A DNA stretch of 64,000 nt, taken from NCBI RefSeq assembly GCF_000153105.1, contig NZ_CH672376.1, positions 2,411,817 to 2,475,816 of the forward strand, written 5' to 3'. How positions within the stretch are numbered: position 1 is the first letter of the stretch; each line of letters starts with the position of its first letter. Shown here in pieces: positions 21,857 through 23,997 of this stretch. Below the pieces are notes generated by a model. It was not told where the DNA came from and searched no databases. It worked only from the letters and a program-made list of their open reading frames with translations. The position numbers and the translations under genes were made by a program. The stretch is from Blastopirellula marina DSM 3645. Lineage in GTDB: Bacteria > Planctomycetota > Planctomycetia > Pirellulales > Pirellulaceae.

Positions 21857-22693
21857 GTGTCAAGGAAGACGTCGGCGGACACAGATTCCCCCAACCAGCC
21901 ATCGCTCGAAGAGCAAGTCGAAACGCTCAAACGGCGTCTGGCTGAAGCCCAAAAGTTCACCGCACTTGGTGAACTGATGAGCTCCACTACACACGAATTC
22001 AACAATGTCCTGACATCGGTCATCAACTACGCCCAGATGGGGCTGCGCCATCAGGACGAAGCGACCCGCAATCGCTGCTTTGACAAAATTCTGGCCGCCG
22101 GCCAGCGGGCCGCAAAGATCACCACCGGCGTGTTGGGCCTGGCCAAAAACCGCAGTGATCGTCGCGAACCGACCGATCTGACGCCGCTGGTCAAAGACGC
22201 GATCATGCTGCTGGAACGGGAGATGCAAAAGTATCGCGTCGAATTGGACGTTCAGCTGGACGACGTCCCCCCTGCCCTGGCGATCGGCAATCAGATTCAA
22301 CAGGTGTTGCTCAACCTGTTGATCAATGCTCGCCAAGCGATGCCCAAGGGAGGCCGTTTGGTCGTTCGCTTATCGCATGACGCCGCCGAAGGCGTTGTCA
22401 GCTTGATGGTGCGTGATAGCGGCACCGGCATCCCGGCTGATCAATTGCCAAAAATTTTCGATCCTTTCTTCTCGACGAAAAGTGGACCAGACGAAAGCGG
22501 CAAAGGAGGCACCGGGCTGGGACTTGCGACTTGCCGCGATATCATCGAGGCGCACGAGGGGAAGATCCGCGTGCAAAGCACCGTCGGCGTCGGCACGGCG
22601 TTTACGATACGGCTTCCCGCTGTGAACCCAATCGTGCCGCAGGCGGTCATCAAGCCTGCAGCCAGTGTGACTTCGTCGGCTGCAACGCGATAG
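21857..22693 (+). CDS. Soluble histidine kinase (HisKA-HATPase)
   Basis: A 278-residue cytoplasmic kinase with no transmembrane segment and no obvious sensor domain. A short N-terminal coiled coil (LEEQVETLKRRLAEA) leads to the H-box ALGELMSSTTHEFNNVLTSV, with N-box LLNLLINARQAMPKGG, G1 VRDSGTGIP, F-box FDPFFSTK and G2 GGTGLGLATC. It resembles NtrB-type kinases lacking PAS. It starts at GTG 21857. No response regulator adjoins. Downstream is the attenuator leader of DAHP synthase, about 100 bases away. Confidence 0.9.
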   Translation: MSRKTSADTDSPNQPSLEEQVETLKRRLAEAQKFTALGELMSSTTHEFNNVLTSVINYAQMGLRHQDEATRNRCFDKILAAGQRAAKITTGVLGLAKNRSDRREPTDLTPLVKDAIMLLEREMQKYRVELDVQLDDVPPALAIGNQIQQVLLNLLINARQAMPKGGRLVVRLSHDAAEGVVSLMVRDSGTGIPADQLPKIFDPFFSTKSGPDESGKGGTGLGLATCRDIIEAHEGKIRVQSTVGVGTAFTIRLPAVNPIVPQAVIKPAASVTSSAATR

Positions 22694-22798
22694 TAAAGAC
22701 CTGAAGCTGCGTCCCCGTTTGGACGTTTTCCTTATGATTAGCGAAGAATGCGATAGCGCCGAGCAGAACGACTTGCGTTCGCCGCTCGGACAGTCATA

Positions 22799-22879
22799 AT
22801 GACCAACATGATCGTGCGAAACAGCTACTTTTGGCAGTCCTTTACCTACTTTACCGGTGGGCCTGGAGGAGCTGCGTAG
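22799..22879 (+). CDS. Aromatic-rich leader peptide of the DAHP synthase attenuator
   Basis: A 26-codon open frame (ATG 22799, TAG 22877-22879) whose codons 10-18 read YFWQSFTYF: three Phe, two Tyr and one Trp in nine codons. It ends GGPGGAA. Such clustering of Phe, Tyr and Trp directly before the first enzyme of aromatic amino-acid synthesis is the hallmark of a ribosome-mediated attenuation leader. A second in-frame ATG at 22808 is an alternative start, and no strong ribosome-binding site is visible. The final codons overlap the antiterminator strand (22859-22869). Peptide synthesis is inferred. Confidence 0.75.
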   Translation: MTNMIVRNSYFWQSFTYFTGGPGGAA

Positions 22880-22944
22880 ACGCACAATCGCTAATACGAG
22901 TCACTTTCAGGCCCTGAACTTCCTTAGAAGTTCAGGGCCTTTTT
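22859..22944 (+). promoter_or_regulatory. Transcription attenuator: antiterminator and terminator alternatives
   Basis: The strand GGGCCTGGAGG (22859-22869) can pair with CTTTCAGGCCC (22904-22914) in an 11-bp helix with two G-U pairs. That helix would occupy the left arm of the terminator at 22909-22940, so the two structures exclude each other. The ribosome at the leader stop codon would cover the first strand and allow termination. Stalling at the early Tyr-Phe-Trp codons would leave it free and promote read-through. The pairings are seen directly. The regulation is inferred from trp/phe-type attenuation. Confidence 0.7.
22909..22944 (+). terminator. Intrinsic terminator in the DAHP synthase leader
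   Basis: A perfect 14-bp stem (22909-22922 with 22927-22940) with loop CTTA is followed by a T-run to 22944. It lies 39 bases before the DAHP synthase ATG and 29 bases after the leader-peptide stop. It could also serve the upstream histidine-kinase transcript. Confidence 0.88.
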
Positions 22945-22983
22945 CGTTTAACTACAGCGTTTTTCAATCGGAGCACCCAGGCA

Positions 22984-23997
22984 ATGATCGTGGTAATGCA
23001 GCGTGGAGCCGGACAGGCGGAGATCGAACACATGGTAAAGCGAGTCGAGAATTTAGGACTGAAAGCGCACGTGATTGTCGGCGAGGAACGGACCGTGATC
23101 GCGGCGATCGGCGACAAACGTGAAGAGATGAAAGAATCGCTGGAAAGCGGGCCCGGCGTCGCCGCGGTGATGCCGATCCTTGCGCCTTACAAAGTTGCGA
23201 GTCGCGAGGTGAAACCAGAGTCAACGCAGGTGGTCGTCCGCGATTTAAAAGTTGGCGCCGGTTCGTTGGGCGTGATCGCCGGACCTTGTTCGGTCGAAAG
23301 TGAAGAGCAACTGATCACGACTGCCCGTGCGGTCAAAGCGGCTGGCGCGACGGCGCTGCGCGGGGGAGCGTTCAAGCCGCGCACCAGTCCTTACGCGTTC
23401 CAAGGGATGAAGGAAGAAGGACTGAAGCTGCTGGCCAACGCTCGGGAAGAAACCGGTCTGGCGATCGTGACCGAAGTGATGTCTCCCGAAGATGTCGAAC
23501 TGGTCGCCAAGTACGCCGATGTGTTGCAGATCGGCGCTCGCAATATGCAGAACTATCGCTTGTTGGAAGCATGCGGCCGCGTCGACCGAGCGGTGCTGTT
23601 GAAGCGCGGACCGGCCGCGACGATTGATGAACTGCTGTTGGCGGCTGAGTACATCCTGAACGAAGGAAACCAGAACGTCATGCTGTGCGAACGAGGGATC
23701 CGCACCTTCGAGGCGCATACGCGCTTCACGTTGCCGCTGGCGACCGTTCCTTACTTGCACCAGAAGACTCACTTGCCGGTCGTGATCGATCCGAGCCACG
23801 GCACCGGGCACGCTTACCTGGTCGAAGATATGTGCGCCGCGAGCGTCGCAGTGGGCGCAGATGGCTTGATCATCGAAGTTCATCCGAAGCCGGAAGAAGC
23901 GATGAGCGACGGCTATCAATCACTGACGCTGCCGCAGTTCGCCCAAACGATGGCCAAGTGCCGCAAAGTGGCCGATGCGCTGGATATCCAGATGTAG
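22984..23997 (+). CDS. aroF: 3-deoxy-7-phosphoheptulonate (DAHP) synthase with N-terminal ferredoxin-like domain
   Basis: A 337-residue enzyme that joins phosphoenolpyruvate and erythrose-4-phosphate, the first step of the shikimate pathway. Residues 1-70 are a ferredoxin-like regulatory domain ([21 protein letters not shown]), as in Thermotoga-type DAHP synthases. The catalytic barrel has [47 protein letters not shown] and DPSHGTGH. Besides possible allosteric control through the N-terminal domain, the sequence shows a leader-peptide attenuator upstream. The symbol aroF is used in the Bacillus-like family sense. Confidence 0.93.

Follow-up and report, generated by a model that had tools for sequence, protein, structure and literature searches.

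Leader-peptide attenuation is best known in Proteobacteria and Actinobacteria. The trp, phe and his attenuators of Proteobacteria are arranged as helices 1:2, 2:3 and 3:4, and each carries a codon run that matches its pathway. The AroR-aroF attenuator of Corynebacterium glutamicum was reportedly described by Neshat et al. in 2014. According to a review, the AroR leader (Phe-Tyr-Phe), which lies before a DAHP synthase operon, senses the limitation of Phe but not that of Tyr (PMC11802643). For Streptomyces lividans, leaderless leader peptides (leuL, trpL and others) are reported whose starts were mapped by RNA-seq (PMC8079986); the main text of the same paper does not contain the terms DAHP, aroH or heptulosonate. 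In Actinobacteria, a survey reports such elements at the genes for Trp, Cys and Leu (PMC1262725). A 2016 paper on leader genes counts those of Planctomycetes by distance, and its available part does not name such an attenuator (PMC4833913). Words beginning with planctomyc- or pirellula are absent from the main text of a terminator survey (PMC2965389). Among the literature matches listed, many available in part and with subscription papers mostly outside the scope, we found no description of a leader-peptide attenuator in Planctomycetota.

Here we analyzed a locus of Blastopirellula marina DSM 3645 that is very probably a ribosome-mediated transcription attenuator of DAHP synthase (3-deoxy-7-phosphoheptulonate synthase), the entry enzyme of the shikimate pathway. 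As far as the accessible literature goes, the nearest precedent is AroR before aroF in C. glutamicum. In both cases a leader peptide with aromatic codons precedes a DAHP synthase operon, and ribosome stalling enhances transcription in the former and would do so in the latter. When the two are compared by description, AroR is actinobacterial with Phe-Tyr-Phe, whereas the present leader is from Planctomycetota and contains three Phe, two Tyr and one Trp codons. The locus resembles the proteobacterial trp, phe and his attenuators in its 1:2, 2:3, 3:4 layout and its pathway-matched codon run, but it differs from them in lying before a common entry enzyme, in mixing the codons of three amino acids and in its apparently leaderless start. 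Like the ilv-type leaders (Ile, Val, Leu), as these are generally known and as two papers present them (PMC8079986, PMC1262725), it combines in one leader the codons of more than one end product of a branching pathway; the codons here are aromatic rather than branched-chain. As with the S. lividans leaders, transcription would begin at the leader start codon, which we infer here from the position of the promoter. The mechanism is classical; it is the three-amino-acid leader, the leaderless start and the phylum that look new.

Organization of the leader region

The DAHP synthase is of the PRK08673 type with a ferredoxin-like N-terminal domain (Pfam PF00793 and PF18152), and it matches NCBIfam NF006421 with 486.8 bits against a cut-off of 335. 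The gene and the elements that precede it are as follows.

22773..22778, + strand: putative -35 element TTGCGT, 16 nt before the -10 element
22795..22800, + strand: putative -10 element CATAAT, overlapping the upstream ATG at 22799
22808..22879, + strand: leader peptide gene, probably leaderless, 23 aa (MIVRNSYFWQSFTYFTGGPGGAA), stop TAG at 22877-22879
22826..22852, + strand: regulatory codons TAC TTT TGG CAG TCC TTT ACC TAC TTT (Y F W.. F. Y F)
22845..22861, + strand: hairpin 1:2 (22845-22850 with 22856-22861), 6 pairs, taking the first bases of the antiterminator strand
22859..22869, + strand: antiterminator 5' strand (region 2), inside the last codons of the leader
22904..22914, + strand: antiterminator 3' strand (region 3), overlapping the terminator 5' arm at 22909-22914
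22909..22944, + strand: intrinsic terminator and T-run, 14-bp stem at 22909-22940, loop at 22923-22926
22970..22973, + strand: GGAG, likely Shine-Dalgarno sequence of the DAHP synthase gene
22984..23997, + strand: DAHP synthase gene, 337 aa

The original prediction placed a 26-aa frame at 22799-22879 with YFWQSFTYF at codons 10-18, and its presence was confirmed. The frame stands, but its start is probably ATG 22808 and not ATG 22799, which overlaps CATAAT at 22795-22800. In the window, by which we mean the whole 64-kb stretch of DNA that was analyzed, the attenuator leader is the sole short ORF on either strand with at least 6 aromatic residues in 10 codons. The chance estimate considered short ORFs of 12-50 aa, which amounted to 1001 distinct stops (518 + 483) on both strands.

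Competing helices at the site

The helices were found as claimed. Positions 22859-22869 (GGGCCTGGAGG) pair with 22904-22914 (CTTTCAGGCCC) through 11 pairs, two of which are G-U. The terminator stem (22909-22922/22927-22940) consists of 14 perfect pairs with a T-run at 22940-22944, 39 bases before ATG 22984, and bases 22909-22914 are common to the antiterminator and the terminator. A terminator scan recovered the same terminator and reported two terminator-like sites in 501 bases against a shuffle average of 0.5. For the 181-nt region the folding energy is −62 kcal/mol (z = −3.57), and one of 200 shuffles did as well. The antiterminator duplex with its flanking pairs reaches −23.3 kcal/mol in B. 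marina, which 3 of 30 swapped partners equalled, and hairpin 1:2 is weak in this genome, a 30-nt piece of L082 folding at −6.4 kcal/mol. The region contains the elements by which attenuators are recognized: a leader ORF with clustered product codons, an intrinsic terminator before the structural gene, an antiterminator overlapping the leader end and mutually exclusive with the terminator, and a 1:2 pause or protector hairpin.

The region was folded with masks that place the front edge of the ribosome some 12 nt beyond the point where the A-site codon begins. The antiterminator was the best structure (−28.4) when the polymerase stood at 22928 and the ribosome occupied the Trp codon (mask to 22844). 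The terminator formed with the ribosome at the stop codon (−27.2 kcal/mol). Stalls at the early aromatic codons leave hairpin 1:2 uncovered, and the hairpin was outcompeted in these folds. It had been cautioned that a ribosome stalled at the last aromatic codons would come close to the antiterminator strand. This concern proved milder than stated: stalls at Tyr 22847 and Phe 22850 do cover about 1 and about 4 bases of the strand, respectively, but even a ribosome on the last Phe codon (mask to 22862) leaves enough of the strand to form a shortened antiterminator at −15.9 kcal/mol. When the ribosome was omitted, the partial transcript to 22928 favored the antiterminator and the complete region favored hairpin 1:2 plus the terminator. 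Since the untranslated partial RNA favors the antiterminator, which speaks against a simple thermodynamic account, termination without translation would depend on kinetics or on how the complete RNA folds.

Survey of relatives

We examined 170 upstream regions of DAHP synthase homologues including that of B. marina (80 named loci, 30 from a family search and 60 fetched), 157 of which were distinct in their last 150 nt. A terminator was present within the last 420 nt in 111 of these 157, and a candidate leader in 104 of the 106 regions with a suitably placed terminator. The aromatic run was found to be kept, as 97 of the 157 distinct regions, B. marina included, have at least 4 aromatics in 10 codons followed by a terminator. 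Bearers include Blastopirellula sp. NORP48 (L003, the upstream end of which is identical to L086) and Roseimaritima sediminicola (L006, identical to L102), and candidate leaders occur in MAGs labelled Planctomicrobium, Gemmataceae and Isosphaeraceae (L043, L059, L069, L070, L077). The other 60 regions have no qualifying leader and some have no terminator, complete genomes of the same family among them; neither was found before the DAHP gene in L151-L153, L157-L159, L161-L163 and others of this family. Some of the 60 were apparently missed by the terminator scan, with L129, L137 and L148 seeming to bear leaders when inspected by eye.

Among 76 non-redundant leaders, 61 contain Phe, Tyr and Trp. 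Phe is present in all 76 and accounts for 311 of the 552 aromatic codons, while Trp makes up 95 of the 2101 leader codons. In the alignment consensus the leader ends in a GGGGCCGGnGG element, which is the antiterminator strand.

Two further arrangements were seen upstream of DAHP synthase. In L050, L074 and L080 we saw no aromatic leader; these loci have GC-rich sequence containing inverted repeats (GAGGTGGCTGC or GTGAGGCTGC ... GGCCAC or GCAGCCA), then a hairpin and a T-run, and the GC-rich sequence gave zero matches to Rfam families. In L164 the aromatic module of the leader is tandemly duplicated (QFYFASGQFYFASGQ), and its relative L168 is without the duplication.

Start codon and promoter

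The same leaders bear on the start codon. Of the 76 non-redundant leaders, 38 have an ATAAT in the 75 nt that precede the aromatic window, compared with a rate of 0.053 per 75 nt in more distant upstream sequence. The next in-frame ATG follows this hexamer by 6 or 7 nt in 28 of these 38. Because the relatives place the start 6-7 nt past the hexamer, ATG 22808 was taken as the start. A TTG precedes the hexamer by 16-17 nt in 31 of the 33 leaders with a hexamer within 20 nt of the chosen start, a start that had been picked partly by its -10. More generally, taking the candidate ORF richest in aromatics as the leader, and the start with the best -10, inflates both scores. At the B. marina site, TTGCGT-16 nt-CATAAT matches 8 of 12 consensus bases when counted by hand, and a generic promoter scan reported zero sites at the leader at its threshold; the argument for this promoter comes from the comparison with relatives. 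From the spacing we would expect transcription to start at the A of ATG 22808, and the leader is probably a leaderless 23-mer.

Conservation of the helices

Two alignments were prepared. Alignment A1 (MAFFT) contains 45 of 48 non-redundant sequences drawn from 57 with a clear -10; L081, L145 and L015 were left out. Alignment A2 contains 59 of 71 sequences, from which 12 distant or uncertain ones were removed by hand (L014, L023, L029, L030, L044, L045, L047, L052, L053, L059, L077 and L079); another 12 had been excluded before the 71 were drawn. For the terminator, the compensatory changes that had been proposed as a check were found. In the 45 sequences, 91.8% of cells are paired and 10 of the 12 aligned pairs show changes on both sides, with a covariation score that none of 500 shuffles matched.

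The conservation of the alternative pairing, which the original prediction also proposed as a check, was upheld by partner-swap tests but not by a count in fixed columns. In A1, 64.4% of antiterminator cells were paired against 62.9% after shuffling, with 61 of 500 shuffles as good, and RNAalifold on this alignment recovered the terminator alone. Since the register and the spacer length vary, partner-swap tests with a free register were used instead of fixed columns. In the first of these, 77 of 105 sequences paired better with their own partner than with 30 swapped partners on average, but only 5 did better than with every swapped partner. In a second test on 75 sequences (L081 left out), the antiterminator averaged −15.62 kcal/mol with its own partner versus −13.92 kcal/mol when swapped, and none of 20000 permutations was as good; control pairings beside it gave p = 0.11 and 0.55. 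A variant restricted to the 20 nt preceding the terminator arm did not reach significance (p = 0.12 and 0.09). With the 59 sequences of A2, the test gave p = 0.0002 for hairpin 1:2 and 0 of 20000 permutations as good for each of 2:3 and 3:4, while the control of region 2 against the spacer gave p = 0.10. Pairing of all three helices is partner-specific in these tests.

Gene specificity

Leaders before different genes were scored by one procedure. The orthologue set comprised 90 of 92 family orthologue places (G036 and G087 out), the paralogue set 20 of 58 places of DAHP paralogues about 50% identical, and the leuA and cimA sets the best-scoring 30 loci each from 70 genomes searched per gene. 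Runs of at least 5 aromatics in 10 codons were present before 58 of 90 DAHP orthologues, 0 of 20 paralogues, 0 of 30 leuA and 1 of 30 cimA genes, with the bias from choosing the most aromatic ORF also present in these gene controls. At a threshold of at least 4, the respective counts were 64 of 90, 0 of 20, 3 of 30 and 2 of 30. A terminator with a short ORF was found before only 1 of the 20 paralogues. Leu runs (at least 5) were seen before 20 of 30 leuA, 7 of 90 DAHP and 3 of 30 cimA genes, and Ile/Val runs before 20 of 30 cimA, 0 of 90 DAHP and 0 of 30 leuA genes. In close relatives and in relatives at the order level, the 400-450 nt before trpE and pheA yielded no terminator (0 of 20 and 0 of 19, respectively). 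These counts and the results for trpE and pheA indicate that, within the genes tested, aromatic control by an attenuator sits at the entry enzyme.

Related leaders before other amino acid genes

In B. marina itself, MSRISLLPLLLLTGHRPQGTA followed by a terminator precedes leuA, and an Ile/Val-bearing frame identified by eye (MPNTLITVGSQKGPITIVRIVVPGRCGLG), also followed by a terminator, precedes the citramalate synthase gene. The leuA leader is L176 (minus strand of G000:C2, terminator at 1816325-1816366). The citramalate synthase leader is L180 (minus strand of G000:C1, terminator at 809362-809407), which has a same-genus counterpart in L305. Leu-run leaders before leuA and Ile/Val-run leaders before citramalate synthase are often found in B. 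marina and its relatives. Their antiterminators are putative: the swap test gave p = 0.16 for 22 leuA leaders and a marginal p = 0.014 for 22 cimA leaders. ATAAT within 25 nt of the start was seen in 0 of 22 leaders of either kind.

A covariance model, R1, gave a single full-length match in the B. marina genome, which is the attenuator site (73.1 bits, E = 2.8e-15); a further 18 matches with E no higher than 1 each cover only part of the model. R1 was searched against 149 genomes of the family and 294 of the phylum (26 with E up to 1e-5), and 20 of the extra family matches and 24 of the phylum loci were read by eye. Thirteen of the 20 family matches precede 2-isopropylmalate synthase genes, most with Leu runs, 4 precede citramalate synthase genes, and 3 (L236, L237, L238) are without such a gene. 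The phylum loci lie before the same kind of DAHP synthase (11 of 24), a different DAHP synthase family (5), leuA (2), citramalate synthase (1) and a fusion (1, L252); the other 4 (L247, L254, L260, L262) are without a matching amino acid gene. NCBIfam assignments of nine proteins agreed with the calls made by eye: aroFGH type for L243 and L245, leuA for L229 and L232, citramalate synthase for L225, L239 and L264, DAHP synthase for L263, and a fusion for L252.

The L252 fusion (genome G159) consists of a chorismate mutase/prephenate dehydratase that continues in frame into a DAHP synthase domain, of which only the first part lies within the locus. Its leader has four consecutive Phe (FFFF) without Tyr or Trp, so the leader codons seem to follow the product. 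In another planctomycete family, aromatic leaders of similar layout precede DAHP synthase of the aroFGH type (L243 and L245 by NCBIfam; L250, L251 and L253 by eye), which suggests either reuse or convergence. L247 (genome G255) is a full-length match to the model with a Leu/Tyr-rich short frame (MKNYLLLNYLYLYLYILRKGRRGDGLS), and no amino acid gene was recognized within 600 nt downstream of it.

Alternative explanations

The attenuator may sense only Phe-tRNA, with the Tyr and Trp codons being incidental. This is a possibility that we consider rather unlikely. It has in its favor that Phe is the commonest aromatic codon and is never missing from the 76 leaders, and that AroR, with Phe-Tyr-Phe, responds to the limitation of Phe and not of Tyr according to a review (PMC11802643). 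On the other hand, all three residues are kept in 61 of the 76 leaders, and a terminator was found before trpE in 0 of 20 genomes, which would leave Trp otherwise unsensed by an attenuator-type device. Trp is a rare residue with a low usual rate, and by this yardstick it is commoner than usual in the leaders. The joint sensing of Phe, Tyr and Trp envisaged by the original prediction is therefore plausible, even though the lack of a Tyr response reported for AroR counts against it. It is improbable that the same mechanism operates from a longer transcript with translation starting at 22799. That ATG is in frame, but it lies partly within the hexamer, and the spacing of 6-7 nt in 28 of 38 relatives argues for the later start.

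The competing helices would equally suit a T-box, a riboswitch or a protein-binding antiterminator, for which the reading frame would be irrelevant. We regard such a device as very improbable because the codons track the product, being aromatic at DAHP synthase genes, Leu at leuA and Ile/Val at cimA, and because the Rfam gathering score was reached neither in any of 13 leader loci, including by the amino acid operon leader families, nor in the window region. The best Rfam match in the window was RF01719 at 19.9 bits (gathering 50), and a further scan found a tmRNA and a tRNA alone, without a leader family. There is still less reason to believe that the terminator belongs to the histidine kinase gene upstream, marking its 3' end, and that the aromatic frame arose by chance. 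The kinase gene is on the same strand and ends at 22693, but it is followed by a separate terminator-like site at 22709-22726. By tblastn, a kinase homologue adjoins only 10 of 55 leader-bearing loci, so the leader and the terminator persist in 45 loci without it. We rejected this explanation on these two grounds and assign the terminator to the DAHP gene on the latter.

Discussion

The anatomy of the locus, its conservation and the partner-swap tests support its interpretation as an attenuator, with the start codon corrected. We propose that RNA polymerase starts at or near 22808 and that the ribosome loads directly on the 5'-terminal AUG. When charged Phe, Tyr or Trp tRNA is scarce, the ribosome would stall within 22826-22852, and hairpin 1:2 would be blocked at the late codons or outcompeted at the early ones. 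Region 2 (22859-22869) could then pair with region 3 (22904-22914) and tie up the 5' arm of the terminator, such that transcription would run on into the DAHP synthase gene. When charged tRNA is plentiful, the ribosome would reach the stop at 22877 and cover region 2, and the 14-bp terminator would stop transcription near 22944.

Branch-specific attenuators were not seen before the trpE and pheA genes tested. There is about an even chance, in our estimate, that the leaderless leader acts as an OR gate for three aminoacyl-tRNAs in place of such attenuators, and that it belongs to a codon-matched set of attenuators (aromatic, Leu and Ile/Val) serving amino acid synthesis in Planctomycetota.

How separated transcription and translation are in the unusual cells of Planctomycetota is a standing question. 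If the proposed mechanism is true, the two processes would be coupled on 5'-terminal leaders tightly enough to attenuate in these bacteria, and this would bear on their separation in such cells. The locus would also serve as a natural test case for the integration of three amino acids by a single leader, and as a model for finding more of them.
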